A DNA stretch of 64,000 nucleotides, taken from positions 68,997,809-69,061,808 of the forward strand of contig CM068827.1 in assembly GCA_028554795.2 (NCBI GenBank). Reading direction: 5' to 3'. The stretch comes from Sinohyriopsis cumingii. Taxonomy: Eukaryota; Mollusca; Bivalvia; Unionida; Unionidae. Below are positions 1-62,976 of the stretch, in pieces (position 1 is the first letter of the stretch; every line of letters begins with the position of its first letter). The notes beneath the pieces are model-generated. The model made no database searches, was not told the DNA's origin, and saw nothing but the letters and a program-made list of their open reading frames with translations. The translations under genes and the position numbers were made by a program.

Positions 1-207
1 CTTATAGAATACTTATATAATACTTATAGAATATTTATAGAATACTTATAGAATATTTATAGAATACTTATAGAATACTTATAGAATACTTATATAATAC
101 TTATAGAATATTTATAGAATACTTATAGAATATTTATAGAATACTTATAGAATATTTATAGAATACTTATAGAATACTTATAGAATACTTATATAATACT
201 TATAGCA
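1..207. repeat. 11-bp minisatellite, cut by the window edge
   Basis: About 18 head-to-tail copies of an 11-bp unit, CTTATAGAATA, with a recurrent C/T variant at its first base and an occasional G-to-T change. The array runs off the left edge, so its full length is unknown. It ends where the unit breaks into GCACATATAATACAG. Confidence 0.93.
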
Positions 208-1121
208 CATATAATACAGATCAAGATGAACTACTGTGCATCAATCTGAAGGAAACTGCAAGAGCACAATTTATCAGAATTTACCACATAAGCATGCAAA
301 TGTTTTTGGGAAACCTCTTTGGCTGTGGGTCTCTCTTTTGCAAAATGTAAATGAGGGTTCAGTGACCAAAATCAGAAGCATAAGGGACTGACCATTTAAT
401 TTTCTGGATGTGGTTAGTTGTATCAAAATAATACATGTAGGAACAAATATGGCTTCCTTGGGCAAGTGGATTTTAAGTCATGACAAACGATTTTTAGATT
501 TTTTTAGATATGTCTGGCATGTGCCTGTGTCAGAAAGAATTCTCTTAGCACTTGACTGTAAAGCAAACACCACTCTATGCCACTGTTGCATTATTTTTTC
601 CCATTTGTTTTGTGTGGTAAATTACAGCACAACAGACCCTATGAAACGAGTGCAGAAGCAGGCTAAGGCCTTCACTGGTAAAATACCTAAATTGGCATGC
701 CAATATCATAAGCCAATGACTAGAAAAACATATGACTAGAGTATTTAGTAGTGTAGAGAAATGAACAGCAGTCAAGCATACTAAGGAAGAAAAAAAACTA
801 CTAGGTCAATTTAGTACTGTCACTAAGATAGAGGACGCCTAAGTTAACTTCAGTCACATTAGCACCTGAAGTATAACATTGTTATTAGCAAACATATGGC
901 TATGCGATAAACAAAACAAAGCCCAGGACACACACTAGCACAGATTACAGCCAGTGTAAATAATAAGCAGTTCTCACATTTGACTGAACTTATAGATTTG
1001 AATGTTAAATTGTTTGTAATATTGTGCCAGTGGCTGTGCAAATAAAAAAAGATTATCTTTATTTACAAAGCAGCTATAATGGATCTTTTGATATTTGTCC
1101 TTAAAGATCAAACACACAGAG

Positions 1122-1123
<2 letters not shown>
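208..1123. other. Unannotated intergenic or intronic stretch
   Basis: No domain, splice-supported exon or repeat family is recognisable here. The open frames (longest about 109 codons, plus strand from 410) have no family resemblance and are of a length expected by chance. If the leader exon at 3681-3757 starts a gene running left, this stretch could be intronic. Confidence 0.5.

Positions 1124-1184
<61 letters not shown>
1124..1184. repeat. (TA)n microsatellite
   Basis: An uninterrupted run of about 30 TA dinucleotides. Open frames through it that read Tyr-Ile or Ile-Tyr alternation are artefacts of the repeat. Confidence 0.98.
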
Positions 1185-1187
<3 letters not shown>

Positions 1188-1689
1188 CTACTCGGTGCAG
1201 ATGCACACTTTAATCACAGTTGGAATGATATTCACATACCTTTATCTTCTTTATCCAATTATTGCCATGGTCAACAGTTTCAGATTGCATGATGGGATTG
1301 TCACTTTCAACTGTGACTACAAATATTGTAAAGACCAAGACAAATCGAATTTACATGTTTTGTCATAATGTATTTATGACATGATAAAGCTGTCACTAAG
1401 AGAGTGAACATGTGTCCAACCAGCATCATGTTCTCAAGAAAAAAACAGCGCATTAATATTAGACTGGTAATTAAGTTCATTTAGTGAAGTCACAAGATAT
1501 GTCACAGGTCAGATAAAAAATAATGTACAGATTTTTCAAACTGAAAAAAAAGTATTTTTTGTTAGTTAGAATGAGAAGTAAGAATGGTCATTGTAAAAGA
1601 AAATAATACTGAAAAATAGTCAAGAATCTCTTGAAGGGACTGATGCAGTACTGAGTGAGAAGAAATTCCAGGAATTCAAGAGAAGACAT
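1185..1689. other. Unannotated; one weak exon-like segment
   Basis: On the minus strand about 1238-1318 has an acceptor-like TTTGTAG, an open segment and a donor-like GTATGTG. Its phase would fit the leader exon at 3681. The translation lacks Ig cysteines and does not convincingly align with exon 2 or 3 of the complete Ig gene, so I do not call it an exon. Confidence 0.3.
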
Positions 1690-3240
1690 TATCTTCCCTT
1701 TAACTATTGAGTGTTGAAACTATCTCTGATATTCTTTAGCAATAACAAGATTTTCAAATTAGCTGTTGTGGTGGACATATTGGATGACAGATTGGCACCT
1801 GAGTTTCATTTAGGACAAAGTAGATATCATTTTAAGTCTTTTGGTCAAAACCCCATGTCATAATGATCATTCATTATGGGAATGCAGTGACAACAAGATT
1901 TTCAGGAGAGCTGTCATGACAGCCATAATGGATGTATGACTTCATGGTACCATTTTCATTTGGGACCAATAACAAGTCATAAGATGGTGAAAATCCCATG
2001 CTGATTTAACCATCCATTTGGGAGTAAAGATAACCATATTTTCAAAATGACCAGTATTGTGGTTAGTCATTTAGGACCAAGTAGACACCATAATAACTCT
2101 TTAGTTGAAAACTCTGTGTCAGAATGACTTGGCTCTTAAGAGGAGTAGCTAAAACGTGATACTGGACGTCAGTTCAGCAATATTTTCATTTATCGTCAAT
2201 AAAACATGAAAAGTCTTACAGCAAAAACCCCATGATAAGATCACCATTCATTACGTAGTGATAACAAGATTTTCAAGCTGTTTACTATGTCCATATTATA
2301 TCCCAGATCAGCACCACTTTCATTTTGGACTAAGCAGACATCATCAAGTCCCTTGGTGAAAACCCAATATCAATATGACATTCTGTTCCAGAGGGTTAGC
2401 ACTAAAATGATTTTCTAGATAGTTGCTGTGGTGGCCATATTACATGTCAGATCAGCGCCGTTTCACTTAGGACTAAGCGGACATCATAACAAGTCTTTTG
2501 ATTAAAACCTCATGTCGATAAGATCATCCATTCAGGAGAAACAGCAATAATAAGATTATCAAGATGGCCGCAGTGGTGGCCATATTAAATGTCAGATCGG
2601 CACGGTGTTCATTTAAGACAAAGTTGACATCATTCTTTTGGTGAAAACCCCTCGTCAATATAACTTCTGTTAAGGAGGAGTTGCAATAAGAAGACTTTCA
2701 AGATGGCTGCCATGGTGGCCATACTGGACTTTCGATCAGTATGAATTTCATTTAGGCCAACAAAGTATCATAAGAAGTCTCTCAATGAAAACCCCAAGTT
2801 TATATGACAAGCAGTGTAGGAAGAGCTGGGATAGCAAGATTTTCAACATGGCCACTTTGGTGGCCATCTTGGATCCCAGCATGATTTTCATTTAGGAGTA
2901 ACTAGACATGATAAGGAGTCTCTTAGTGAAAACTCCATGTTGATATGACCACTCATTCAGCAAAAGCAGTGATAGCAATGGTTCATGTGGAGGCCATATT
3001 GGACATCAGATTGGCACCATTTTTATTTAGGTCCCAAGAAGCTTGTCTTTTAGTTAAAAGTTCATGTTGATATGACCATCCATTCAGAAGGAGTAGCGAT
3101 AACAGAATTTTCAAGATGGCCACTGTATCAGCCATATTGGAGGTGTAAGCAGCACCATTTTCATCTGGACCACTTAGACCATGAGATAAATATGTGTTAA
3201 TGGCAATCCTCCAAATAGTTTAGGAGGAATAGTGATAACA
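1690..3240. repeat. Diverged ~142-bp tandem satellite, about 10 units
   Basis: A recurring block, GATTTTCAAGATGGCC...GTGGCCATATTGGA, falls near 1753, 1898, 2039, 2268, 2409, 2553, 2693, 2838, 2975 and 3104. Most steps are 130-145 bp; one step of about 229 bp probably hides a degenerate unit. The rest of each unit is also shared, with phrases such as CATTTAGGAC, CATAACAAGTC, GTGAAAACCCCA and ATATGACCATCCATTCAGGA. Copies are clearly diverged, so the array is old. It lies left of the leader exon at 3681-3757, where an intron of that gene would be expected. Confidence 0.85.
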
Positions 3241-3680
3241 AACTTGTGGTAACAGATGCACAATCATCGGACGATGGATGACAGCCAACAGACCATCCCA
3301 TTAGCTATTCTGGTATATGACCAGTAGAGCTAAAATAAACCCCAGAAGAATAATTCCCAAAAATCCACGTCTCTTGGTACATTTTTCTCCTGTCGCCCTG
3401 TGGGCAAAAGAACAGGATTAATGTTGCCAATAACTAAGACACTGCTCTTCTTTGACAAAGAATAGGTGAACTGTCACTTTTGTCATCTGGTATCCATACT
3501 TGAACAATATGAGAAACAATCCCGATTACATGACAACATTTTGGTTTGTATAAAAGTAATCTCTTGTACCTTAATAACTTGTCAGCCAGCTATCGACTAA
3601 GTGTACCCGACATTAAGTAAATTAAAAAAATATAATAGTGTGTTGTCTGACGGAAAACAAAAAAACATAATATATCTTAC
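3241..3680. other. Unannotated; expected intron 1 of the left-hand Ig gene
   Basis: No coding or repeat signal is recognised. It directly follows, in minus-strand sense, the donor of the leader exon at 3681. Confidence 0.35.
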
Positions 3681-3757
3681 CAATAAGAAAACAAGCGAGG
3701 ATAACAGTCATCTGTAGCAACCTGGCTTAGATTCCGTCAGGCTACAATTCATAGTAC
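3681..3757 (-). CDS. Leader (signal peptide) exon of a second Ig-family gene
   Basis: This exon is homologous to the leader exon at 62901-62976. Reading the minus strand, a polypyrimidine tract and CAG acceptor end at 3758. A short 5' UTR follows, then ATG at 3711-3709 and ten codons, MTVILACFLI, ending in a split glycine codon before a GTAAGA donor at 3680. The match with the 62.9-kb exon covers the acceptor, UTR, start codon, coding end and donor, and continues about 80 bp into the upstream intron. The reading frame and intron phase (1) are conserved, although the first residues differ (MTV against MMST). I infer the first coding exon of a tandem paralogue transcribed leftward off the window. 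No partner exon was confirmed between 1 and 3680, so a solitary duplicated exon is the alternative. Confidence 0.72.
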
Positions 3758-4204
3758 CTGTAGAAACACAGAGAAAACATATAACAAAAAATTCCCTACG
3801 GCATCAAAATTATTTAGCTGTGATAAATAGTGCTCAAAATGCAATTCCATAACTGTTAACAATAGGAATGTGGAAGGTCACATATTGTATTAGGCGCCGC
3901 AGCTCACAAAAGTTGGTCCAGTGAGAACATATCAGGTAAAATTTGTGTTACATATTGAGAATCTCAACTTCACATGCTAAATCAAATTATTTTTGTATTC
4001 CATAGTTCCATTTTGTATCAGCAAGATTGAGGGATTGTTGACTTACACAGATATGGTTGAAAGTTTTCTTTCCAATATTGAGATTTTAGATTCTATCTGC
4101 TGAATTTAAATTTCAAATGAAACTTTCTCAATCGAACAAAGCCTCATAAATGCAAAGATTGTTTGTTCTAGGTAAAGTTTATTAAATAGTTTTGCCTATT
4201 TGAT

Positions 4205-4272
4205 CCAAGTCAATGCCAGACTAAGGCCTTCCCGGGCCCTAAGCACTGACAATATTATCATGCCCCCATTTA
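4205..4272. mobile_element. Fragment related to the hAT-like MITE at 23.9 kb
   Basis: CCTAAGCACTGACAA followed by TGCCCCC, with GACTAAGGC just before it, matches the terminal part of the complete MITE at 23889-24156. No terminal repeats or target duplication remain, so this is a broken copy. Confidence 0.4.
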
Positions 4273-4339
4273 CAAAATGTGAAAGTGAAGAAGAAAAACA
4301 ATACTCAAACCTAAATAAGTGGGAAATGGATTGAAACGG

Positions 4340-4341
<2 letters not shown>

Positions 4342-4435
<94 letters not shown>
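4342..4435. repeat. (TA)n microsatellite on the 5' side of the LINE
   Basis: About 47 TA units end exactly where the LINE reading frame becomes recognisable. A matching (TA)n lies at the LINE's 3' end. Confidence 0.98.
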
Positions 4436-6245
<1,810 letters not shown>

Positions 6246-6272
6246 CCATTTCAATTTGCATGTACAAGTAAA

Positions 6273-6287
6273 TATATTAATAATAAT

Positions 6288-6326
<39 letters not shown>
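6273..6326. repeat. (TAA)n microsatellite
   Basis: A nearly pure run of AAT/TAA trinucleotides just downstream of the LINE and its (TA)n tract. It is probably derived from the LINE's ATTATTA-type tail or a neighbouring insertion. Confidence 0.9.
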
Positions 6327-7141
6327 GAAATTCAAATAGTCAGTACTTACCTACTGACAAGATACATGTATGTAGAAATTTAAATATATACCATGTCAAT
6401 TCTAATAGGTCTAATTATTATAATTATTATAGAGATGATATCATCATGAGAAAAGATGGAATGCACATGTCTGGTTGTGATCCAAGTATTAATCTGGAAA
6501 AGCTTTTCACAATTCCATGAAGGTTAGCATTGCCAAAAATATAAGCCCATGAATTTTGTCAGAGTATATAGAATTAGTGAATAGGCAATTGTCTGCAAGT
6601 CAATACCATAATGTGAAAAGAACATGATGTCTTTGAGTTGTACATTCTTAACAGTATAATACATGTTCAGCTGTTTAGTAGTGTACAGTAGTTAAGTACC
6701 TACTGTTAGATTTATGAATAAATCGTGATTTAAACTAGTATATGTATGCTTCTCATATGCTCTTGCTAAATTTGAAACACTGAATAACCAACATGATAAT
6801 ATGAAGGCGTTGCAATTTTCTCTTGATTTAGTACTTTACATAAAGGGGACCAAAATCATATTTGATGGTCATTTGATGTCATATGACCAAAATACAAGGC
6901 ATAAAGACTAAAGTGGCAAGATGAACCTACATACAAAAATGTTCTAAATTTAGTACATTTTTGTTAGTGTTTTGGCAGCTGCTTAAATCAGAATTAATTA
7001 CAATGTATAGTTTCTGCTGTACTTACCGGATGTTATATGGACGGCATACATGGTACCGTATAGTTATCAAAATGGGTCAAAAAGTATTAAGTCGACCCTG
7101 ATTATAAGAAAACATACCAGTTTAGTCATGAATATTTAGAT
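6327..7141. other. Unannotated intergenic stretch
   Basis: AT-rich sequence with no recognised gene, repeat family or extended open frame. Confidence 0.5.
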
Positions 7142-7284
7142 GACTCCAGTGGCTGTGCGGTTAGAGCGTTCACCTAGGATGCAGAAGGTCACAGGTTCAA
7201 ACCCTGGTGGAATCATACCAAAGATTTATAAAAATGGTACAAACAGCTGCCTCACTAGGCACTCAGGACTAAGAGGTTAGTGTT
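7142..7284 (+). mobile_element. SINE-A, left half (tRNA-derived head)
   Basis: This is the 5' part of a tRNA-derived SINE. An A-box-like GTGGCTGTGCGGTTAGAGCG and a B-box-like GGTTCAAACCC are followed by the body phrases CATACCAAAGA and CAGCTGCCTCACTAGGC. It stops at AGTGTT, where a 6-kb element is inserted; the remainder resumes at 13284. It is an early-diverged copy compared with those at 23.8, 24.8 and 45.3 kb. Confidence 0.88.
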
Positions 7285-7790
7285 TATGGAGGGGGTTACC
7301 ACCATAATTCTATGCATGTATTTTCTAATCTTCCTTGATGCATTATTGTAAATGGCCGCGTACAAGTGCTACTTTCATAATTCTATCCATGTATGTTGTA
7401 TTCTTCATTGATGCAAATTGTATGTGGTAGTTTGCAAGTGCTACTTTCCTTCTGCATTGCTATATTTATAATTCTATCCATGTATATTGTATTCTTCATT
7501 GATGCAAACTGTATGTGGAAGTTTGCAAGTGCTACTTTTCTTCGGCATTATTGTCAATGGCTGCTTGCAAGTGCTTAGATCTACTTTCCTTCTGCATTAT
7601 TGTAGTTTTCCAACTACTGAATTGATTATGTAGTTTGTCATATGGCAAATGCTTTGTCAGTTATTACAAGTTTTAATATTCTATTTATAAACTTGCTATA
7701 TCACAAGTTACATTGTTTCAACTGTTAATTTTATTCTGCATTGTACAGATTTTGCCTTGCAAAACCGTAACTTCAAAATGTTCTCCTAGT
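7285..7790 (+). repeat. Left arm of the fold-back element
   Basis: Shares with the inverse of the right arm CCATAATTC-TATGCATG, TTTTCTAATCTTCCTTGAT, TTTGTCATATGG and TATTCTATTTATAAACTTGC. Alignment fades near 7790. Internal ~115-bp direct sub-repeats make the arm itself partly tandem. Confidence 0.85.
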
Positions 7791-8437
7791 CCATGTTTTA
7801 TGACAGACTGCATGTTCTAAAATCATGATTATAAATGTAGCATTAAGCATGCTACAAGTTGGCATCACTTTAGTTGGCATAAAATAATGCCTCATTATGA
7901 CAACAGATGGCGCTGTGATATGTCAATTTCTTACAATATGACTACTCCCCTGACCCTAGCAACTAGAAGCTATACCACTTTACAGCATGTTTGGGCATCT
8001 ATTTTTAAAATATCATCCAAATTATGTTGTTTCATTAAAGTCAGTCGGTTTCTCAGAGTAATAACATTCAGAAGGGAGAAGGCTTGCAAGAAGCACAAAA
8101 CAAATTAAATGTATCAAACTGTATATAATTAGATGTATTTACACAAACTGTATACAATTAGATATATTTACACAACATTATATTTCTGCTGACCGTTCCC
8201 ACTCCATTTTAATTTGGACATTTTGTGGGTGTAATTTACCACTACCACATGGCTTAAGGTCCTAATTTGTTTATGTATTCTCATTCACGGTGTTAACAAT
8301 TAAGAGCAAGCTTATTATTTTAGAGTAATGCAGTGCAAATAATGCTTTTTGTATCAGTAAAGACCTCATAAGGTTTGTGTAAATTGCTGATAATTGAACC
8401 TCAAGGCCATTCTTTCTCTTTCTTGTCTATTCGCTTG

Positions 8438-8458
8438 AGAGAGAGAGAGAGAGAGAGT
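8438..8458. repeat. (GA)n microsatellite
   Basis: Short run of GA dinucleotides inside the fold-back element. A similar impure GA tract lies at 10214-10250, and a TC tract at 11500-11523. Confidence 0.9.
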
Positions 8459-10529
8459 ACATTACAGATGAGGGTTCTCTTTATTCTCTCATCCTTACGA
8501 AAATTAATTTTTAATGTTAATCTGTAGTTTACAGTGGCAGTTTAATAGGTTTAATTCAGTTGTGCATCAATTCAACAACAAATGGTCATTATATAACAAG
8601 AAGTAAGGTAAATATTCAAGTTTTACAGAATTCTAATAAATGTATGGCATGGATGATTATGCAATAGCCAGCAAGCATTGTCACTAGTTGTCTGTGAAAA
8701 GTATCTCATATCTCCAATTTCAGTTTCCAATTCCAATACAATAGCAAGAGGCAATGACTTGAAACAAGGACATCACATACAAAGCATTTACTGTTGCATG
8801 GGTATATGCAAGAAAAATATGAACTTATTTCATTATATAAGAAAATAAATTTTAACAGTATGAAATATATATTTTCTATATCTAAACATAAAGAACATTT
8901 CCATACAATTATGAAATGCTTTTTTCCACAGATATCAAACTGGAAACTACATTTATTATTATTTAAAGTAGTATTCATCCATATATGAAGCGATATTTAT
9001 AGTACAGATGATTGATTGTAAGGTATTTCACTGATAAAACATCAGACTCCTTTGGTAGCAACTATAAAATTATAATATATTGAATATAAATAACCTTGTT
9101 ACCGCTACCAGTAACCAGCTAATTTGTTATTATTATTACTGCTACAATACAGTACGTCAGTACCAAACTTGCTTGATACATCTGGACATGAACTTAATCT
9201 AGCAGTTAATAAGATTAATACAAATTTTTATATGGATCTTCTAGAGATGTGATTGTTTTATGTTAGAGGAATATAACCAACACACCATAATTTAAAAAAA
9301 AGAAATTAAAAGTTTTTAATGCTATTTACAGCTCAGGCTGTTGTAGCATCCATACCCCTACATAAACAACTTCATTTATGTGTGATTTTATCATTATTTT
9401 ATCCTGTTTAAAATAAAAGTTAATATTGTCATGACAACAAATTTCAGCAAAATACAACTATGCAATAAAGCAAAACAAATAAATAAATAAAACGTATATA
9501 CAGCCCTATGTTCAACTTCCATAGGAAATATTAGAGAAAAATAAATATTCTATTTAAAGCAGCATTCATAAAAACAATATTAGATGAATTAGTCTTTAAA
9601 TAAATGTATCATACAGGTAGGCATTTATAAGGAACAAATACCTGAATTGTTTGTTACATTGTTCTTACATGTTTATTTGCCAATCACTTTTGTTTTTCAC
9701 TTTCACATGAATAAAACATGAATAAATACAAGTGTTTCACATAATTTGGCTTTTGGACAGGACATACACTCATAATTGCAAATTCTGAGGAATTAAAACT
9801 CTAAATTCTGGATTGGCTGATGCACATTTCCTTTTGTATACACATACATTTGTAAATTATGCCTCAAGAACAGTCTGGTTATATTCCATAGTAGCTGTTT
9901 CAAGAATTAACCCCAAAAAACATTACATTACTGGATCTATTTTCAATGTTTTCACTGTACAAAAATGCTACAGTTTTGGAAAATATTTTCTGTGGCCAAT
10001 AAAATAAGTTGTTTGCATCTGCTGTGCGCAAAACCAATAAAAGGATTATATTTTATTTGCTAATTTGTTATTTCTGATACTTTGACCCTCACAAAACTAC
10101 CATATGTATGAACCTGAGATGCAATTTTAAATTTGGCCTGTTATCCCTAATATATGTGCCTTGGAACAATGGATAAGGGAAATTCCATAATTCAAATGAT
10201 TTAATTACTCAGCAGAGAGAGAGAGAGAGGAGAGAGAGACAGAGAGAGAGATGCATTAGTAAGTTAGTTTCTTCATAGAATACAGAATGATAGAAGAGAA
10301 AAAAACACTAGCCAATATCTGACTGTAGTTGTAAGATATGTGAGCAGAAAGTAACAGGTACTTTATAAGCATGCAATACATTTTAATGTGAGTTATAGGC
10401 CCCAAAGTACTATTCTGCATAAAAGACACAAGACTGGGTTTCAGAAATTATGAGAAAATGGAGACCACCCCAGGGACCTGCTGGTGATGAGAGGTCAGTG
10501 AGCAATCAAATTGTTCTAAGTCATATAGA

Positions 10530-11105
10530 CAGGCAATCTATAGTCTACCCCATAAAACTCTTACAGCTGATCATTTAGGTGTCAATAAGACTTATCACAA
10601 CATCCTGAATCATTTTTTATTGACCAAAAATTAAAAGTGATGTGTATAAGTACTATAGATCTTGTCACACTTGTCAAATGGTAGGAAATCCCAATCAGAA
10701 TATATCTAAGGCACATCTGCAACCTATTCCTGCATTTGATCATTTGATGAACCATTTAGCAGCAAAATGGAGGCTGTCGGTTGTTTACCTAATACCAAGT
10801 CAAGCAACCAGTAATTGTTGTCCATAATGTGTGCATCCTCAAGATTTCCATAGGCTATTACTTTGAATTATGCTAAAGCAAAATTTGTTCTAAAAGTTTT
10901 GGCAATGTTTATTAACACTTGTTCGCCTCCCCACATCTGTCCAGTCTGATCAAGGGACATATTTTATGTTTGAATATTTCCAACGACTTATGCATGATTT
11001 GGACATCCAACAGTTTAATTTTTATGCCTATCAACCTGAAAGTCATGGGGACAGCACAAGACTGTTTGAAAACACTCTCACCTACCCATGATACATGTAA
11101 AAAAT
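10530..11105 (+). pseudogene. Decayed Ty3/Gypsy-type integrase fragment
   Basis: With two or more frameshifts and several stops, the plus strand reads as the N-terminal part of an LTR-retrotransposon integrase. The zinc-binding HHCC module is visible: DHLGVNKTYHNIL supplies the histidines and YYRSCHTC the C-x2-C pair. The linker phrase HLQPIPAFD that characterises this Gypsy group follows. Core-domain remnants come next, including a degraded aspartate-glutamine-glycine block near 10945 and a YQPESHG block near 11030 carrying the expected glutamate. No reverse transcriptase, RNase H or LTR was found beside it. It lies within the 6-kb fold-back element, so it was either captured by it or inserted into it. 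It is certainly non-functional. Confidence 0.82.
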
Positions 11106-11465
11106 TATATTGAATCAAACCTAAAAAAGACAGTGATCAGCAAAATTCTGTATTGTATAATTATTAAGTAAGATCACGAGAGATTTTAACTCATGCTGGT
11201 AATTATCACTAAATGAAAGACCCCATGACTACCCTAAAACAGCAAAAGACTGTCCCAAAACATCCTTAACTACCCAGGAAATCTATAGGCAATTAAATAA
11301 ATCAAACCAAAAAGAGACAGTGATCAGCAAAATTCTACCGTGTATAATTATCAAGTAAGATCAGTAGAGTTTCTTCCTTCTTGATACTTGCTGAAGGAAA
11401 GACCTTAAGACTGTCCCAAAACACGCTCATCGACCCAGGATACATGTACATGTATACAATTACAA
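11057..11465. repeat. ~160-190-bp local duplication, three partial copies
   Basis: Blocks starting AAGACTGT near 11059, 11248 and 11408 share a following phrase ending CTACCCAGGA or similar. The segment GACAGTGATCAGCAAAATTC...TATAATTAT-AAGTAAGATCA occurs at about 11130 and 11320. The duplication starts in the 3' remnant of the Gypsy integrase. Confidence 0.75.
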
Positions 11466-12639
11466 TTACAATAACTTAATGAAATATGCACATTTGGTGC
11501 GTTCTCTCTCTCCTTCTCTCTCTGATCACTCATAATTCTAACTAAACTACTTTTATATCACGAAGAATGGCACACTTAATAAGTCTGAATCATGTGACAC
11601 TACATTAATATTTCAAAAATTCTTTTTTTAAAAAGAATATTTAATGTGACAAAGAGTAGACGAATAATTTGAACATATATTCATATTTTAAAATTCTTTA
11701 ATCAATTTATTATTTTTAATTGGTTTGATAATCAGGTAAGAATTACAAAAATAAAAATATAATCTCCTGTAACATTACGTCTTTTGTCTCTGATTATTTC
11801 CACTTTTAGAGACACAAGTTTTAAAGGATGCAAACGAGTTTTAAAGTTTAAAAAAAAACCAAAAGAAAACTACATTCAAAGGTTGAGGTTCTGTACACTA
11901 ACAATGCAAATTAAGTATTGGAAAACAATCGTACACTAAATCTAATACCTGTACCTCTAATCATAAGTAAAGATTTTTTATCATGATAAGAACATGATCT
12001 TCCACAATTTGATTTTTTTTATTATGTGCTTTTGATGTTACCCTGAAATATAGTATTTTGGATAGAGCTTATGTACAATAGTATCACTCGAAAAGATAGA
12101 TGTTTGTGAGGTGCGACAAAATGGGTGATGTACTATAAGGTCTTTACAACCAGTGGTTGTCTGATAAAAGCTCGTTAAGAAAAGTACAAGGGAATATATG
12201 TCATTTCTGGTCCTTACTTTGCTAAAATAACTAATAACATTAGTACTGTTTCCAAAGTAATGACAGATATTACTAAGAAGTAGATTTCTTAAACGGTGAA
12301 AGTAAATACACAAGTGCGTTAAAACTGGGGTTGAAGAAGATGGACCATCCTGCTGCAGTGTATGCATTTTTGTTTTCGTAAGGTGTTATAAATCACTTCG
12401 AGAAAGCACATGGTTTTAGAGAGTGATTAAACTTCGCTGCTAACATACATCTTTAAAAAAAAAATGAAAGAGTTATAATGTTTATTTGGCGTCTAGATCT
12501 GGTAAGTTCTTTATATGCTACTTGCCACACCAAATGAATGCCGTAAAGCAATCTAAATTCCTGTGGGAAGCATCCATTATTTTTGATAAAGGAAACACTT
12601 AAGAAATTTAGAGCACCGTCATTATGCCATGCTAATACT

Positions 12640-13283
12640 CTAGTATCCCACTATGACAACAGCTGGCAACACAACTTGGACAACAAAGATGATACGGATT
12701 AAACTTGGTATTTACATTGTTGCAAGGCCAAATCTGTATGAAAACAGCAGTTGGAATTATGGAATTGCAATATAGCAAGTTTATAAATAGAATATAAAAA
12801 ACATTGTAATAACTGACATAGTATTTACCATATGACAAACTACAGACTCAATTTAGTAGCTGGCAAACTACAAAAACGAAGAAGGAAAGTAGATCCAAGC
12901 TTTTGCAAGCAGCCATTTACAGTTTGCATCAATGAAGAAAAGAAAATTAATGACTAGAATTACGAATGTTGCACTTGCAAGCCGTCATTTACACTAATTC
13001 AGACGGAAAGTAGCACTTGCAAAATACAACGTACAGTTTGCATCAATGAAGAAAATTCATGACTGTAATTATGAATGTAGCACTTGCAAGCAGCCATGTA
13101 CAATAATGCAGAAGGAAAGTAGCACTTGGAAACTGCCACGTACAATTTGCATCAATGAAGAATACAATATATATGGAAAGAATTACGAATTTAAAGTAGC
13201 ACTTGCAAGCAGCCATTTACAATAATGTATCAAGGAAGATTAGAAAATGCATGCATTGAATTATGGCGTATTACCCCTCCATA
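12640..13283 (-). repeat. Right arm of the fold-back element
   Basis: Inverse of the left arm, somewhat longer because it retains one more ~115-bp sub-repeat. In plus orientation it shows CATTTACAATAATG, GGAAAGTAGCACTTGCAA and GTTTGCATCAATGAAGAA repeated three times. It ends at CCCCTCCATA next to the AGTGTT target duplication. Confidence 0.85.
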
Positions 13284-13451
13284 AGTGTTGCGCCTGGTAC
13301 GCCTGGTGTCAGGATAATGTGACTGGGCGGGACATCATTTTACATGTCTGCGATATGATGCAGGACATCACTATAAACTGCAACACTGCAGATGTAGCGA
13401 TATGACTGAAAAATTGTTAAGCTACGTTAAAAAGTCAGAATCACAAACACA
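13284..13451 (+). mobile_element. SINE-A, right half (body and tail)
   Basis: Continuation of the SINE interrupted at 7284: GCCTGGTGTCAGGATAATGT, CACTATAAACTGC, GCGATATGACTGAAAAATTG and the AATCACA tail. A short internal deletion removes part of the GCCCCAGTGCTAGAC segment found in other copies. Confidence 0.88.
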
Positions 13452-14629
13452 TGGGGCCATAAATAAGCTCGCTGTAAACAACTTGCAGTGAGTATTGTGA
13501 TCTAAAGATGCATATATCAAAAATGATTTGCAAGCATTTAAATATAGAAAGATGAAGCCCTTGTCACATATATAAGAATGGTTACTAGAATGTAATGGTG
13601 ACTATACTAAAGCGTGCTGTCATATATCTGAAAACTTGGGTATCATTTAGAAAATCAAAACTAAAATCAATCACAACATGAGTAATATCTGCACACGCTC
13701 ACTTCTTTGTTCATTTTGTTTCCCTCATTTTGTTACTGCAATACAGCAGGAATGGGCTTAATAACAATGAACAAAGTTAATCATTAACCAATGCAACTTA
13801 ATTTTGAATACGTGGTAATTGTTCCAAAGAGCAGCCATAGGAAGCAGAAGGCATTTGGTAGTAACCATTCTGAATTTGTAGTGTCCAGTTTAATGACATC
13901 CTATCCAAATAAAATAGGAATTATCTTTCGGCTAAATCAGGGCACCAAATTAAAGGTGACTAATACAAATTTTAGGTACAATAGTTAAATATATCTACAT
14001 TTAAGATAACCCGTCCCAATTAAATATTAAAACTGGTATGTTCAGCACAAAACAAAGTTACAAACATGTTCTGTTCCACCTCTCTGTAGTTCTACATTCA
14101 GTCTACAATATTTTCAAAGAATTGAAATAATGTGAAACTATAAAACAAATACAACATTACAAAATATGCAAGTAATTGAAATTAAAAAAAATAATAAAAA
14201 TAAACAAAACTTGAAATAAACTATAAATATATACAATCTCTGTCTTACAAGCACTAAAAGGTAGCAATGCTCAACCTTGGTCGTTTCATGTGTTATTTTA
14301 TTATATCGTCCACGCACATATCTACAACAAACATGTATATTCTGTATAGTACTTGCCTTTATTGTTTGTGTTTTGTTCTAGTGTTCTTTGTGCAATGGTC
14401 AGTTATATATTTTGTGCCCTTGAAAATGGAATCTAATATAGACCATGAAAGCAATCGGGCTGATTTCATGCAAGTTTTGGATAGCTGTTTGTCAGTTTTC
14501 CTTGCATTAATATTAGTCTTTCTTCTTATGTTTTGATACTTTTTACTTCTCTCTTATTTAAAAGAACATAGTTTATAACTTTACATTTGGATAAAATCTT
14601 AAAACAAAGATTTGATTTCGTAGTCTTGA
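13452..14629. other. Unannotated intergenic stretch
   Basis: No supported gene. An 89-codon plus-strand frame at 14267-14536 has two hydrophobic stretches but no upstream context, splice signals or family resemblance. Confidence 0.45.
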
Positions 14630-15290
14630 GGGAAGGATGCATAAATATATTTGGGGGAGGGGTAAACAAGTAGACTAGTGGTCTGTGGGATGGAACCCCC
14701 AATAGAGGCTTAAGGTCGATGCCACATCTCCTGCATTTTAGCATGTCAAGGGCATATTTTTTAAACATCTGCCTGTAAAGGGAATTTATTACAGGGTATA
14801 ATGGTATCAACTGTACAACCCCAGATGGTTGGAGCTTAAGGTCTAGGAAACATTGGATTCAGAAATAAACAACAAAAGCAGCTGTTATTGGTGAATAATG
14901 TGAGATTCATACTTTCTTTTAGGCTTAAAACAAAGCTGAGCCTCATGGCAATATGTGAGATTATGTTAATTCCTATCTATATCATTTTTTTTATTTGTTA
15001 TGATTATTTTTTTTAAATATGGTACACATGACTGAAAATTAGTCTGTTGTGATTAGACAACTCTTACCCTTGTCTAGTTCCAGCAGAGCTATCTCTCTTA
15101 AATACTATGGAGTACCTGGTTCTGTCCTTGTCAAATTGACAACCTAAAATTGTCCTTTATGACAGTGTGTGGCATACATGCTGAGGTAAGAAAGAAAGCA
15201 TATTTATTTCACAAAACATTAGCATTGAGGTATATGGAAAAACAATTGGTACCATGATACCTATTGGGAATAACAGTCTCAAAGTGTATC
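14630..15290. repeat. Unclassified dispersed repeat R, copy 1
   Basis: Two blocks recur elsewhere in the window. GTAAACAAGTAG...GGTCTGTGGGATGGA...CTCCTGCAT is shared with 23180-23330. TATTTATTTCACAAAACATTAGCATT followed by TATGGAAAAACAA is shared with 18475-18540. No terminal repeats or coding sequence are seen, so its class is unknown. Confidence 0.65.
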
Positions 15291-16392
15291 CACAGAAACA
15301 CATACATGGGGGTGGAATGTATGACTTATACTAGTTTGATGTAGGAAAACAAATGGATGCTGAACATTTCTGGTCAAATATCACAAAAACACGATAAAAT
15401 GTATGAAATCTGCAGAAAATAATACACAAGTTGGCTTTGGATGGGGCTTTTGATGACTATATCTATGACATACATTTGATTTGTATTGCCGATGGAATTA
15501 TGTCCGTTTATTCAGCTCGAAGATTGGCATACATGCAACAAAATGAGTTATTGGAACATAATATAGTTGATTTTATTTTACCTGCAAAAGATGAAAAATC
15601 ATGTATAAAAAACAACTGTCTTGTTCTTGTAAGGCATGTCATAAACCAAGATAGAGAACACTCTAGGTTCAGTTGTAGATAGATCACTTTGTATCACATA
15701 GGATATTCTGGTATGAGTAATTTTAGGTAATTTATTAAAGATAGGATATTCCTTCTCACTTTGATTTTATTTGTCCTGCAATAATTGTGCTTTTTTTAAA
15801 GAATTTCCTGCCTTGAAATTGTTCATGCAGTTTACTTAGATAAGTTCTCTTGCATTCCATTTTGTTGAAGTAGCAGGGAATATCAACAGACAAGAGCAGT
15901 TTCTTTAAGTCAGCATTTCCCATTGACACTTGTATAAGCCCAATTATAACCTACTATTAACTTTCAGTTGATTCTATTTATGTATGTCCAGCTGTTCTTG
16001 TGGAATTTCAATATTAGGTCAAACATTCTTTTGAGTGGTAACCGTATTAGTCACATATTGGCCATTCCTTCCATTCAAGTCCACTCCGTTCTGCAAACTT
16101 TGCATCCCATCACAAGAATCCAAATTGGTGTGGCATCATATCTGCATGGTTACTGAATGCTGCATCCCACATGCCAATCATGTAGCAAAAATGAACTATG
16201 TGTTATAAAAGAACCACCTCATGTCAAAAAACAAAATTACATCACTCATGAGATCTCCACTACATACAGAAGCCTCGATATTGGCTTCTCGCTTTAACAA
16301 TAACGTATTTTTGAATAATTTTCTTGCACTGAAGTTAATACATATATTCATGAACTCATTTATATTAAATGGATAATATACTGGAAGAAATA
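15291..16392. other. Unannotated intergenic stretch
   Basis: An 83-codon plus-strand frame at 15431-15682 is the longest open segment. It has no recognisable domain and no splice signals that support it. Confidence 0.45.
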
Positions 16393-16622
16393 AAAATACC
16401 ACACCTTATGTATATCATCCAGTTATCTCCCTTACATCAGACATAACATTTCAAGAAATAGAAAAATACCACACCTTAAAAATACCACACGTTATGTATA
16501 TTATTCAGCTATCTCCCTTACATCAGACATAACATTTCAAGAAACAGAAAAATACCACGCCTTATGTATATCATTCAGTTATCTCCCTTACATCAGACAT
16601 AACATTTCAAGAAATAGAAACT
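16393..16622. repeat. ~80-bp tandem repeat, three copies
   Basis: The unit runs AAATACCACACCTTATGTATATCAT...CAGTTATCTCCCTTACATCAGACATAACATTTCAAGAAA, repeated three times with few changes; the first junction includes an extra partial copy of AAAATACCACAC. It carries GTTATCTCCCTT, a motif I know as very common in molluscan repeats. Confidence 0.9.
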
Positions 16623-16691
16623 CACATTGTCAGTGATTGGTAATGAAAATAAAGAGAAGAGTTGTGAAGTATTATATTATACCTCAATCTC

Positions 16692-17294
16692 AACTCATTA
16701 ACCCCAGGAGGTTTTTGTCGTTTTTGCCTGAAATGCGAGTAGGAAACACATTTTGGGGTCTATTTCTGAATACGTCCTAATACATCGACTTCCAAGAGAA
16801 TTCCCATAAACCTAATGCCTATAGTTAGAAAGATCTTTTACCCGTGGCTATTTCGCTCACGCATGAGCAGAAGGGTGAACGTTGGAGGTTTTTTCTTCTT
16901 TTTTTGTTGTTGCTTAAAAGACCCATCATTTTCGTATCGAGACCAATCTTTATTCCAAATGCCCACCTTATCCTACTTTTTGCAGAGGTACACCTGTCTG
17001 TCTTCAGTTGAGGCCGGTCTGCCTTAGATTCGAGGCCAAAAGTCTAAAATCCAGACACGAAGTCGGATTCCGACCAGGGCCGAATTTTGGGGTGGAAAAA
17101 ATTGGGTCAAATAAATTTGGTTTTTCCCTCTGTATTTTGTAGTGCAACTAGAACGTCCAGATTATTTGGTATCATTATAGAGCTACATGTGTCTACCTTT
17201 CTATAATACCACCCTCTTTAGTGTATCATACAGAGCTCGGGAGTAGGATACTACCTCCTGCCGCGTAAACGTGGCGCCAGGGGTTAATGAGTTA
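16692..17294. mobile_element. MITE-like element with TTAA at both ends (piggyBac-like)
   Basis: A 603-bp segment is bounded by an inverted repeat, AACTCATTAACCCC at the left and its inverse at the right. If TTAA is taken as the target duplication, the element proper starts CCCCAGG and ends CCAGGGG, which fits piggyBac-type non-autonomous elements. The inverted match extends outside TTAA by six bases, so the true border is uncertain. No transposase frame is present. Confidence 0.6.
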
Positions 17295-18424
17295 ATGCAA
17301 ATGTACATAGAAGTGAATAATTTTCACACAAGTTTACAATTTAAAAACTGATAAAGTATATCCTGTTAGGTTTAGGTACTTTTCTGCCTAACTCAAGCCC
17401 ATTACTGTTAATTTCTTATGTAGAAGAAATATAAATCATATGCATCTACATTATCTATATTATTCACGCTATTATTTTAGATGATAATGCACACTACTTC
17501 ACCTGAAGTTTCTGTGCTTGTGAGGAATGTTCTAGCACATGTGCATTGAGACTGTACTTAGACCTATGGGGCACTGCCTCCATATATTTATCTAAGGTAA
17601 GGTCAGTCAAACTTTCACTTTTCATTTTTCTCAGTGTTGCTTTGTCTCCTTTAATTTCTTTATCATAAGCTACACCTCTCTTTCATATATAAACTTTCCT
17701 TCTGTTTTAACTCCATTTGAATCGCTTTGCTTATTACTTATCTTTGGCATTTTTCTGCATCTTATTCCCAAAATGTCACCCCAAATCCAACATAACCTCT
17801 TCCAAGCTATGATATACTTACTATATTTGGTGACAAATTGGCTTACCGCAGCAATTTTTATTCACAACACAAAGGAGGGAATCTTACTATTTGTGTTACA
17901 AAGATGATGAGTAGGTAGACCTTTGTGTGTGGACTTGGGGTTAGTGACCTCATGTATCTGCAGATAGTATAAAGTGTTCAAAGCTTATACTTTACAATAA
18001 GATTGGTTCATGTCAACCTGTCTCTGATGTTAAGTTCTGCATCTACCAAACAAATATAAAGTCCCTTTATTTTAGATGCATTGTACTTTTTGAAGTAGGA
18101 GAGGTTCATACTAATTGGTACATTGACCTTTGACCTAGTTATTACATAATATGATATAATGTGATTTATCCCATATAACCCATGTGAAGTTCAATTAGTG
18201 CTGATATGGATAGAAACCCAACTCATGGTTAACACAGTTCATTTTATTCCCAAAATGTATTTTGGTAGTCAAGCACACAGCTGAAATAGTTCGATGACCA
18301 TTACATACACATTAATGTAAGACACAGCTTGGTATCTACATAAAATTGTTTCTGACAAGCAAGACTAAGTACACTTGTTACTTGTACAGTCCCAAGCTAT
18401 ATCACAGATTATTGAAAAAATTAA
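17295..18424. other. Unannotated intergenic stretch
   Basis: No gene, tandem repeat or family-level similarity recognised. Confidence 0.45.
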
Positions 18425-19009
18425 GGTTGGCTATGTGTATAACGGTACGAATTGTACAACCCAGGATAGAAAGTATATTTAATTCACAAAACATCAGCAT
18501 TCAGGCCAATGGAAAAAACAAATGATACCTTAGTAACGTTCTGCCCGAACTAATTGTTGTTGTTTGTTTGTTTTGTACTGGCGCACCTCCACCTCCTAGG
18601 ATCAGATCCGTACCTTGCCTTGACGCACAATCTTGATATCACTTAGAAAAGATTTTGTTAGTCACTAGACGTAAACAGTCATACTAACGAATGATGGGGA
18701 TGGGAAATTTTAATTTATGGTAAAGAATAACAAAATCAGTTTGTCTGGAGAATGGAAAGCACTTAATAATTTCCCTTTGTTCATTTAACACAAATACGGG
18801 TCAGGTCAGACAAAACATTACTGGTATTATGGATTAGTGGGGTTTGGAAGCAGCATTTAGGAAGTGTGTATGTGTATATGTGTTTGCTCCATCGCACTTT
18901 CCACACAAATGTACCACAGTAAAATTAAAATTTTCCTACCCTATTCATTTACTAGTCTGCAAACCGGATACCGATATGCGTAAAATGGAAAAACATTAAA
19001 CTACTGCAA
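18425..19009. repeat. Dispersed repeat R, copy 2
   Basis: Matches 23330-23820 in the same orientation over several hundred bases. Shared landmarks are CACCTCCTAGGATC against CACTTCCTAGGATC, AAAGATTTTGTTAGTCACTA, AATAACAAAATCA-TTTGTCTGG, GGTTTGGAAGCAGC and GCACCACAGTAAA-like text. Its left part matches copy 1 (15200-15265). It runs directly into 46-bp minisatellite units. Confidence 0.75.
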
Positions 19010-19109
19010 GGATGAGAGTACTAATTCATGAGAACATGAAGTTGATGGTATAATACAAAAAAAGAGTACTAATTCATGAGAACATGAAGTCGATTGTTCA
19101 AAACTTATA
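19010..19109. repeat. 46-bp minisatellite units, left outlier
   Basis: Two units of AGAGTACTAATTCATGAGAA...GAAGT-GAT, the same repeat as the main array at 20434-21012. The two parts are separated by the 19110-20437 insertion. Confidence 0.85.
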
Positions 19110-19221
19110 GGTTACTGCATTTGTATGGGAAAAGATGAACGAGTGTTTTGCACGACCTTGGGAGTGCAGTATATCCATCCGACAAAACGAGTTCATATTT
19201 TCCCATACAAATGCAGTAACC
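19110..19221. repeat. Perfect 24-bp inverted repeat with hairpin potential
   Basis: 19110-19133 is the exact reverse complement of 19198-19221. The match continues imperfectly inward (GATGAACGAGTGTTTTG against CAAAACGAGTTCATA), giving a 112-bp near-palindrome. Confidence 0.93.
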
Positions 19222-19926
19222 TTTTTATTATATGCTCATTTTTTAATTCTACCTAAGGCTTAATTATAGAAACAAAATACACTACAAGAAACAACGTAAA
19301 TGAATGTATGCTGTATTCCAAACTAAATATACAAGTGCATATTCATCTTTACGCAACAACAACATTATTACAGCGCACATAACTCCGCCCAGATAAATCT
19401 GAAGTTAGTCGCTCGCTCGACATAACTTTGGAACGAAAATGGCGTGTCTAGTTAAAATTGACATTTGGAGTTATATTGTGAATGAATGTGCAATGCAATA
19501 ACTTTTCCATTTGATCTGGAATGAATCGATTTTGGCATTTTTTTCTTCTTTCGATTCTACGATATTTCGTGATAATGGACTAGATTTGTATGTGACAATT
19601 CCACAAGAAATACATGGGACTGAAGAAGCTAGGGGTAAGTGTGTTGACATCTGCAAATTTGTTTCTGTTTCTGTCATTGAATGTTTGAAATCATAATGTG
19701 GTATAAATATGAAGTCTTTCAATTGCAATTATCAAAAAGACGCTATGGAATTTAATGCTTATTTCATTTTGAGTTCAGTTAGGAAGATGTAATTGCACTT
19801 ATCATCGAAATTACTGTACAATTTCGAAATGTGTAATCAAGATTGAGAACCTATGACATGGCTCATGTAATTCGGATTTGCAGAACAAAGAAAGTACATT
19901 TTGAGGAAATTCAGGATGTAAAACTG

Positions 19927-20018
<92 letters not shown>

Positions 20019-20437
20019 CCATTCTTATCACCGGCTAAGGAAGACAGTATATGATTTGTCACTTGTATGTTATTTGTAATGACCTTTTTTTTCGTCTGTT
20101 GTATACTGCAGCTAGCCTAAATCCGAAACATTGTATCAAAGCGGAATGTGCCAAAGCAGCTGGTATGTGGCACTCCACAAAACATCTGTTTTAGTTCATT
20201 CAGAAACAAATTTAAACAACCACAACTTAAAGCGCCTCTTACGCGAGTGTACATGATTTGTTTACAAATCAAAATTGCTGGCGTCTGCGTCCATTGTTTG
20301 TTTACAATAGAAAGTAGTTCCTTTATGCACGTGAATGCTACATGTGTATTGGCGCGCGGGTTCAGTATCGGGTAATACTGCACGATTCTGACAATGTAAA
20401 GTTAACGGGGACAAAATGAGCATATAATAAAAAAAGA
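19222..20437. mobile_element. Candidate ~1.2-kb inserted element with 21-bp inverted ends
   Basis: TTTTTATTATATGCTCATTTT at 19222 is inverted at about 20413-20435, and both ends abut the same 46-bp minisatellite, so the segment looks like an insertion into the array. Inside are a (TA)n tract and weakly exon-like plus-strand pieces. An open segment ends in GAAGCTAGGG before GTAAGTG at about 19634. A phase-compatible segment runs from 20112 (after CTGCAG) to about 20159 (before GTATGTGG). I recognise no protein and no transposase, and the target duplication is unclear. Confidence 0.45.
19933..20015. repeat. (TA)n microsatellite
   Basis: About 41 TA units within the candidate inserted element. 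Confidence 0.98.
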
Positions 20438-21012
20438 GTACTGATTCATGAGAATATGAAGTCGACTATTTATTACAAAAAGAGTACTTATTCATGAGAA
20501 TATTAAGTCGACTGTTTAATACAAAAAGAGTACTTATTCATGAGAATATTAAGTCGACTGTTTAATACAAAAAGAGTAATAATTCATGAGAATAAGAAGT
20601 CGACTTTTTAATACAAAAAGAGTACTAATTAATGAGAATATGAAGTCGACTGTTTATTACAAAAAGAGTACTAATTCATTAGAATATGAAGTCGACTGTT
20701 TATTACAAAAAGAGTACTAATTCATTAGAATATGAAGTCGACTGTTTATTACAAAATGAGTACTAATTCATGAGAATATAAAGTCGACTGTTTAATACAA
20801 AAAGAGTACTAATTCATGATAATATGAAGTCGACTGTTTAATACAAAAAGAGTGCTTATTCATGAGAATAAGAAGTCGACTTTTAATACAAAAAGAGTAC
20901 TAATTCATGAGAATATGAAGTCGACTGTTTAATACAAAAAGAATACTAATTCATGAGAATATGAAGTCGACTGTTTAATACAAAAAGAGTACTAATTCAT
21001 GAGAATATAAAG
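20434..21012. repeat. 46-bp minisatellite, main array of about 13 units
   Basis: The unit is GAGTACTAATTCATGAGAAT + ATGAAGTCGACTGTTTAATA + CAAAAA, and nearly all units contain GTCGAC. Units differ by one to four bases. Shorter arrays of the same unit lie at 19010-19109, 24600-24780 and 25120-25240. Confidence 0.97.
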
Positions 21013-21715
21013 CTACTGTAAACTATGCCATCATGTCGGCCAATTCCGCGCGTCGGGTAATTCTGCGCAACGATACGTCATTTCTGTGAACAGTTGATCA
21101 TGTGCTATTTTGGGTCAAAAATATCCATTTTGTATCAAGAAAGAACGATCTTACTTTAATTAAGAAAAGTGATATTCATAAAGTGTACACAAATATCCCA
21201 TATTTCAACTCGAAAGGCATATGAAAATACGATTTCTAAATCTCAACATTAAGACCCACTCCATGGCATTCTTAAATCTTTAACCCTGAAAATCCTATTT
21301 ACTATGTATCTCTTAGAATCATACAAATAAATATATTATATAAAGGTGGAAATGTATACCTTAAAAAATTCTGCATCTTAATGCAAGTTTCCAGTTTTGC
21401 ATGAAGTTGTCCCACACGTACAATATCATCTGCTACACAACATGTCAACTTGCCGCTAGAACGGCATTCTCAAGAAATTCCCCGGCATATATTCTGTTTC
21501 TAAATTCTTAAGTAATTCTTCCCCAGAAACAAGACATTGTAAACACATTACATCCTATTCATTGTTGTTTCTCTTCCACATATTAGCTTGTTAAAAAAAT
21601 ATAAATGTTGAATTTTACTCATGTTTTACAAGATAGGTTTAGTTTGCTTGATATCTCTTGCCATTTATTGGCATTGTTACGTTGAATTTTGTAAAACTAG
21701 CTATAAACCTGACCT
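21013..21715. other. Unannotated intergenic stretch
   Basis: No gene or repeat family recognised between the minisatellite and the next SINE. Confidence 0.45.
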
Positions 21716-22147
21716 GTGATTGGGATTTTTAAGGTAGCTTTAAAAAATTCAGTCATATCGTTACGATATCTGCAGCATGATGCCCCAGTGCTAGACATCG
21801 CTATAAACTGCCACATTGCAGACATCGTAGCGATATGACTGAAAAATTGTTAAAGCTACGTTAAAAATCCTAATCACACACACACACGATGTCTGCAGTG
21901 TGGCAGTTTATAGTGATGTCTAGTAGTGGGGCATCATGTAGCATACAGGTGGCATGATGTCCCACCCAGGCACATTATCCTGACACCAGGCCGACCAGTC
22001 CTAACAATAACCTCTTAATGCTGAGCGCCAAGCAAGGTAGCTGTCAGTACCATTTTTGTAAGTCTTTGGTATGACTCGGCCGGGGGTTCGAACCCAAGAC
22101 CTCCGCATCCGAGACGGACGCTCTAACCACTAGGTCACCGAAGCGGT
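21716..22147 (-). mobile_element. SINE-A, minus strand, interrupted by a second SINE-A
   Basis: A full-length SINE-A with head at 22147 (AGCGGTCACCTAGTGG-type inverse) and a tRNA B-box inverse GGGTTCGAACC-like at about 22083. It is interrupted at 21776-21887 by a separate, oppositely oriented copy. Removing the insert restores a normal tail. Confidence 0.9.
21776..21887 (+). mobile_element. 5'-truncated SINE-A nested inside another SINE-A
   Basis: A 112-bp plus-strand 3' fragment from CATGATGCCCCAGTGCTAGA to the (CA)n tail. It is flanked by GATATCTGCAG (21765-21775) and GATGTCTGCAG (21888-21898), an 11-bp target duplication with one mismatch. Confidence 0.88.
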
Positions 22148-23824: not shown

Positions 23825-24406
23825 GACCGCTCCGGTGGCCTAGTGGTTAGAGCGTCCGCCTCGGATGCGAGAGGTCGTGGGTTCGATCCAGGGGCTGATT
23901 AAAGCTCACTGGTCCCCTAAGCACTGACAAATCTTGGTGCCCCCCTCCTTTCCACTTACATCTGGGAAGATAACCCTAGGGTGCACCATGATCAAGAAAC
24001 AGAACATTATGATCAATTTGCACTAGTTTTATCAATTTTTTTTACAAATCTTCATTCGTTTTTTTTTTCTCACCCTTTTCTCAACTTTGTGGTGCCCCCT
24101 TTGGCCCTGGTGCCCTAAGCACGTGCTTAGTCTGCTTAATTATTAATACGCCCCTGGTTCGATCCCTGGCCGATTCATGCCAAAGACACAAAAATGGTAC
24201 TCACAGCTGCCTCGCTAGGCGCTCAGCATTAAGAGGTTAGTGTTAGGACTGGTCGGCCTGGTGTCAGGATAATGTGACTGGGTGTGACATCATGCTACAT
24301 GTCTGCGGCATGATGCCCCAGTACTAGACATCACTACAAACTGCCACACTGCAGTCATCGTAGCGATATGACTGAAGAATTGTTAAAGCTACGTTAAAAA
24401 TCCAAA

Positions 24407-24450
<44 letters not shown>
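23825..24450 (+). mobile_element. SINE-A, full length, interrupted by a hAT-like MITE
   Basis: The head GACCGCTCCGGTGGCCTAGT carries an A-box-like GGCCTAGTGGTTAGAGCG and B box GGTTCGATCC; the body and a long (CA)n tail follow. Flanking CTCATTAT (23817-23824 and 24451-24458) is the target duplication. A 268-bp MITE sits inside the B-box region; without it the SINE is about 350 bp, a third of a hundred bases being CA tail. Like all copies it lacks a reading frame and would have relied on LINE machinery in trans. The tRNA ancestor is not certain. Confidence 0.93.
23889..24156. mobile_element. hAT-like MITE inserted in the SINE B box
   Basis: A 268-bp element begins CAGGGGCTGATTAA and ends in the inverse of CAGGGGCGTATTAAT. 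It is flanked by a perfect 8-bp duplication, GTTCGATC (23881-23888 and 24157-24164). An 8-bp target duplication and CAGGGGC-type ends are the hallmark of hAT elements. It has no coding capacity. A fragment of a relative is at 4205-4272. Confidence 0.9.
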
Positions 24451-24599: not shown

Positions 24600-24780
24600 T
24601 ATAAGTACTGCAACGATGAGAATAATAATTCATGACAATGTGAAAATGATGGTATAAATACAAAGAGTACTAAAATTATGACAATATGAAGTTTATGGTA
24701 TATTACAAAAAGAGTACTAGTTTATGACAATATTTGGTTATGGTATAATACAAAATTAGTATTAATTCACGACAGTGTGT
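24600..24780. repeat. 46-bp minisatellite units, diverged
   Basis: Four units of the GAGTACTAATTCATGA type, more diverged than the main array. The run is broken by the SINE-A at 24791 and continues at 25120-25240. Confidence 0.8.
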
Positions 24781-24790
24781 AGATTATTGT

Positions 24791-25119
24791 GTGTGATTTG
24801 GATTTGTGATTTGGATTTTTAACGTAGCTTTAACAATTTTTCAGTCATATCGTTACGATGTCTGCATTGTGGCAGTTTATAGTGATGTCTAGCACTGGGG
24901 CATCATGCCGCAGACACGTAGCATGATGTCCCACCCAGTCACATTATCCTGACACCCGGCCGACCAGTCCTAACACTAACCTCTTAATGCTGAGCGCCAA
25001 GCGAGGTAGCTGTTAGTACCGTTTTTATAAGTCTTTGGGTATGACTCGGCCAGGGATCGAACCCACGACCTCCCGCATCCGAGGCGGACGCTCTAACCAC
25101 TAAGCCACCGGAGCGGTGA
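24791..25119 (-). mobile_element. SINE-A, full length, minus strand
   Basis: An intact 329-bp copy flanked by AGATTATTGT (24781-24790 and 25120-25129). It inserted into 46-bp minisatellite DNA. The tRNA-like head is at the right end, with the inverse B box GGATCGAACCC at about 25054 and inverse A box CTAACCACTAAGCCACC at about 25095. Confidence 0.95.
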
Positions 25120-25240
25120 AGATTATTGTATAATACAAAAACAGGTATTAATTCACGAGAATATTAAGTTGATGGTATAATACTAAAATAATACTAATTC
25201 ATGAGAATACGAAGTCGATGTTATAATACAACGTTTCCCA
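25120..25240. repeat. 46-bp minisatellite units after the SINE
   Basis: Two to three diverged units (AGTATTAATTCACGAGAATATTAAGT and relatives) continue the array interrupted by the SINE. Confidence 0.75.

Positions 25241-41046: not shown

Positions 41047-62976
<21,930 letters not shown>

Follow-up and report, generated by a model that had tools for sequence, protein, structure and literature searches.

A foldback-shaped DNA transposon of probable IS3EU/GingerRoot type inserted in a SINE of Sinohyriopsis cumingii

A 5,999-bp element running between two inverted arms (7285-13283) interrupts a SINE in the window, the 64,000-nucleotide stretch of Sinohyriopsis cumingii DNA analysed here. The element entered a pre-existing SINE and duplicated 6 bp of it, which is demonstrated for this one insertion. 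Judged from the ends and the duplication length of this single copy, set against published descriptions, it is probably an old IS3EU/GingerRoot-type element, a non-autonomous, foldback-shaped cut-and-paste DNA transposon. The IS3EU name is preferred because the ends fixed by the SINE (TATGG..CCATA) and the 6-bp duplication agree with the published signature. The element supplies a base-exact example for a superfamily with few descriptions, its own arms being unusually long and sub-repeated, and it illustrates that a 6-bp duplication combined with long TIRs is not a Polinton by default.

The interrupted SINE and the ends of the element

The two parts of the split SINE (Table 1) have blastn counterparts elsewhere in the window at 24803-25113 (-), 24156-24417 (+), 21892-22128 (-), 45283-45577 (-), and 50725-50971 (+), along with three further shorter matches. 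The tRNA called at 25042-25114 by tRNA searches (Pro by ARAGORN) is the head of one of these copies, so the interrupted SINE is, by its sequence, tRNA-derived. For an empty-site comparison, the flanks were joined, one AGTGTT was removed, and the product was aligned to the five other copies. The insert is absent at the corresponding site in 5/5 uninterrupted copies, and all five hold a single target site, which reads AGTGTT exactly in two and differs by one base in three; therefore, the SINE was already in place when the element entered it and duplicated 6 bp. Two random 6-mers of the window are identical with a probability of ~0.0006. The preliminary description had proposed that a 6-kb long-inverted-repeat element with a 6-bp duplication splits a SINE and that the SINE fixes both ends to the base; the five empty sites bear out the former, and the AGTGTT abutting either end confirms the latter.

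Table 1. Coordinates of the element, its parts, and the split SINE (window positions).
Feature	Position	Strand	Basis
SINE 5' part	7144-7284	+	blastn to window copies begins at 7144; alignment
Left target-site duplication, AGTGTT	7279-7284		sequence; uninterrupted SINE comparison
Left inverted arm, starts TATGGAGGGG	7285-7786, inner limit approximate	+	repeat finding, blastn, global alignment
Left-arm tandem sub-repeats, 91-bp unit x 1.9	7377-7549	+	tandem-repeat finding
Interior, AT-rich, no transposase detected	7787-12695		Pfam scan of 60 pieces
Decayed Gypsy-type integrase fragment	10518-11090	+	PF17921 matches; frames; core-like stretch judged by eye
Three partial repeat copies, spacing 188 and 161 bp	11058-11448	+	repeat families D6 and D7
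Right inverted arm, ends CCCCTCCATA	12696-13283, inner limit approximate	-	repeat finding, blastn, global alignment
Right-arm tandem sub-repeats, 109-bp unit x 2.6	12940-13227	-	tandem-repeat finding
Right target-site duplication, AGTGTT	13284-13289		sequence; SINE alignment
SINE 3' part	13284-13451	+	blastn; alignment

The element terminates in TATGGAGGGG...CCCCTCCATA, with AGTGTT outside both ends. The TATGGAGGGG 10-mer occupies 7285-7294 (+) and 13274-13283 (-), where it is read as CCCCTCCATA, and AGTGTT follows to 13289. These two sites are the only exact TATGGAGGGG matches in the whole window. With up to one mismatch, there are four against 1.65 expected, and since 8/100 shuffles reach four or more, the 10-mer by itself is unremarkable; what is remarkable is the paired arms. 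A terminal hairpin, formed by TATGG and an inner CCATA, was rejected as not stronger than in shuffles (z -0.81 and -0.29).

Inverted arms and their sub-repeats

Two main inverted blastn blocks connect the arms, with 77% over 318 columns (E 2.5e-72) and 69% over 465 columns (E 3.4e-64), gaps counted in both. Global alignment gives an identity of 410/478 columns, or 86%, out to 7780/12702, as the sum of 50-column alignment blocks with gap columns excluded. The right arm is ~86 bp longer, and the inner limits are approximate because the likeness fades inward. The earlier observation that arms of ~0.5-0.6 kb contain tandem sub-repeats of their own holds for both sides, with unit lengths and copy numbers as listed in Table 1.

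Two candidate binding motifs, chosen by eye from the arms after the repeats were known, were counted in the window. With up to three mismatches, GCAAGTGCTACTTT has 12 matches against 6.4 expected, a number reached by 6/100 shuffles and not clearly above chance; eight of the 12, including all those with up to two mismatches, lie inside the arms. For TTCTTCATTGATGCAAA, six matches were found against 0.75 expected (reached by 0/100 shuffles), five of them exact and within the arms.

Because the arms differ in ~14% of aligned columns and the split SINE is ~18-27% divergent from the five other copies (blastn), the insertion is probably old. Comparing the element to the window by blastn revealed no further arm copy, its other matches being GA-rich simple repeats and one short match of 36 bases. 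The arm DNA had no match in phage records, a result uninformative for animal-looking DNA, and the arm patterns had none in viral and prokaryote collections, which says little for such DNA.

Interior content and family assignment

The interior is AT-rich, with a GC fraction of 0.317 (7787-12695). A Pfam scan covered all 60 stop-free pieces of at least 34 aa from 7780 to 12700 on both strands. Among these 60 pieces, no match was found to a transposase family, a reverse transcriptase family, or the polymerase B, ATPase, protease, and capsid families. Two pieces matched Integrase_H2C2 (PF17921), with E 9.3e-05 and 5.3e-04, neither of which reaches the Pfam gathering score. We regard this family as the only real one among the interior Pfam matches, and four others, each with one weak match (E 0.006-0.047; a bacterial leader peptide and a geminivirus region are included), as chance.

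The PF17921 matches belong to a fragment whose H2C2 zinc finger lies partly in one frame and partly in another; after it comes a stretch resembling a DDE core, broken up by stops and frame changes. When compared to solved structures, the first integrase piece had one weak unrelated match, a viral replicase polyprotein (E 0.46), and the second had three weak matches, all integrase by name (E 0.57-0.71). We take the fragment to resemble Gypsy integrases, with the PF17921 matches and the three weak integrase matches as support. It is probably nested debris, and since IS3EU transposases have no zinc finger, it is unlikely to be the transposase of the element. In the available part of PMC10045372, the HHCC motif is given as absent from IS3EU, GingerRoot, and Polinton. 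The three partial repeat copies overlap the integrase fragment and continue beyond it.

As described in the available part of PMC10045372, TA..TA termini are invariable in complete IS3EU families and a duplication of 6 bp is usual, and the accessible text of PMC12730594 gives a rust-fungus IS3EU set TAYGG..CCRTA ends, TIRs longer than 30 bp, and 6-bp duplications. The element runs from TATGG at 7285 to CCATA at 13283, which fits both TA..TA and TAYGG..CCRTA; its one insertion is flanked by the 6-bp AGTGTT, and its arms of ~500 bp exceed the 30 bp of the fungal set. Where the preliminary description could not assign the ends and the AGTGTT to a family with certainty, they fit the published IS3EU signature. 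Its suggestion of an undescribed fold-back transposon survives as to the foldback shape; "undescribed" probably does not apply at the superfamily level, given the IS3EU ends and duplication. GingerRoot, reportedly described from clubmoss, is the second candidate name. PMC10045372 ascribes to it 6-bp duplications and mostly TA..TA termini, both shared with the element, and IS3EU and GingerRoot are not separated here.

Of the 45 Repbase families assigned to IS3EU, PMC10045372 lists 17 as autonomous, so members free of a transposase are common. No IS3/IS481-like DDE transposase was found among the 60 interior pieces, in keeping with a non-autonomous copy. The element differs from the published IS3EU descriptions in that its arms measure 0.5-0.6 kb with tandem sub-repeats and no transposase was detected, whereas the fungal TIRs are given only as longer than 30 bp in the text consulted. 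The literature surveyed, itself a partial sample, describes no IS3EU with tandem-sub-repeated arms of ~0.5 kb. Two oyster satellites, with monomers of 690 and 129 bp, are labelled IS3EU in a table of PMC8268682 (available in part), which suggests that IS3EU-type arms may seed satellite arrays.

For an IS3EU/GingerRoot-type element, the following course of events is proposed. A relative located elsewhere in the genome would have supplied a DDE transposase that bound the arms, perhaps with the sub-repeat units as its binding sites. After cutting at TATGG/CCATA, this enzyme would have inserted the element at a staggered 6-bp break in the SINE, duplicating AGTGTT. The arms would have diverged, with sub-repeat units gained or lost before or after insertion, and the Gypsy-type integrase fragment now lying mid-element most likely came in by separate insertion or capture and has decayed.

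Long arms, often of tandem sub-repeats, are also found in the foldback transposons Tetris and Galileo, whose duplication lengths differ; the element resembles them in its long arms. A foldback element of another or unnamed superfamily, such as hAT6, which takes its name from 6-bp duplications, is an unlikely reading in which the TATGG ends would match IS3EU by chance. In its favour, internal tandem repeats within long arms are a foldback trait, the element retains no transposase that could decide, and hAT families with 6-bp duplications exist (PMC12730594, available part). Against this, the ends were set by the SINE and not chosen, and ends and duplication length both agree with IS3EU.

A gutted Polinton/Maverick, also raised in the preliminary description, would have retained the long inverted repeats after losing its genes. 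Intact vertebrate Mavericks do share 6-bp duplications and long TIRs (46-1,447 bp) with the element, according to the accessible text of PMC8097293, and an integrase trace is present here. However, that text gives vertebrate Mavericks an intact size of 12.7-24.6 kb and the end motifs (AGT)2, (AG)3, and (AC)3A, AGT/AG-type ends unlike TATGG in a comparison with vertebrate ends only. Likewise, the N-terminal zinc finger seen in the trace is absent from Polinton integrases (PMC2836005, PMC10045372, available parts), and the Polinton polymerase, ATPase, protease, and capsid families have 0 matches among the 60 pieces of at least 34 aa. With vertebrate end motifs that differ and Polinton genes that were not found, this origin was rejected as very improbable.

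A Ginger1-like reading, in which the integrase remnant would be the transposase of the element and the ends and duplication would be unusual, is scarcely credible. In its favour, Ginger1 does have TIRs and a Gypsy-type integrase with a zinc finger, a likeness that the trace shares with Ginger1/Ginger2, the remnant is enclosed by the two arms, and the interior scan matched no reverse transcriptase family. However, Ginger1 (4-bp CCGG/CCGT duplications, TGTNR ends, TIRs of ~40-270 bp) and Ginger2/TDD (4-5 bp duplications, TGTNR ends) are both unlike the element, as far as the available part of PMC2836005 describes them, and were rejected. There is likewise only the faintest prospect that a foldback-shaped animal IS3EU lineage evolved long tandem-sub-repeat arms and captured a Gypsy-type integrase (zinc finger and core) that once served as or replaced its own transposase.

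The surrounding window

The window was scanned for TAYGG..CCRTA pairs whose flanking duplications share at least five of six bases. Of the three pairs found, only the element at 7285-13283 has a perfect duplication. In 40 first-order random copies of the window, the same scan returned 0-4 pairs each, perfect duplications not being tallied separately; the other two pairs are at this noise level and were rejected as a second such element. CpG depletion specific to the element was likewise rejected, its observed/expected ratio of 0.31 falling within the 0.24-0.46 of 6-kb sub-windows starting from 1 to 14001. In 6-kb sub-windows starting at ~17-27 kb and 50-58 kb, the ratio is 0.8-0.98, and the contrast between 1-20000 and the rest of the window looks like mosaic methylation.

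A 421-aa open frame at 4436-5698 contains a reverse transcriptase domain (PF00078, E 5.7e-32) and is probably a LINE-type element. A weak Ig-domain match, under the Pfam cut-off, was also seen in the window. Two minisatellites were found, one at 42596-44292 (71-bp unit x 24, with GA runs) and one at 49074-50720 (34-bp unit x 48), the end of which adjoins the SINE copy at 50725. Three places (20425-21019, 24627-24755, and 25128-25231) carry a 46-bp satellite unit judged alike by eye, the latter two flanking the SINE copy at 24803-25113.
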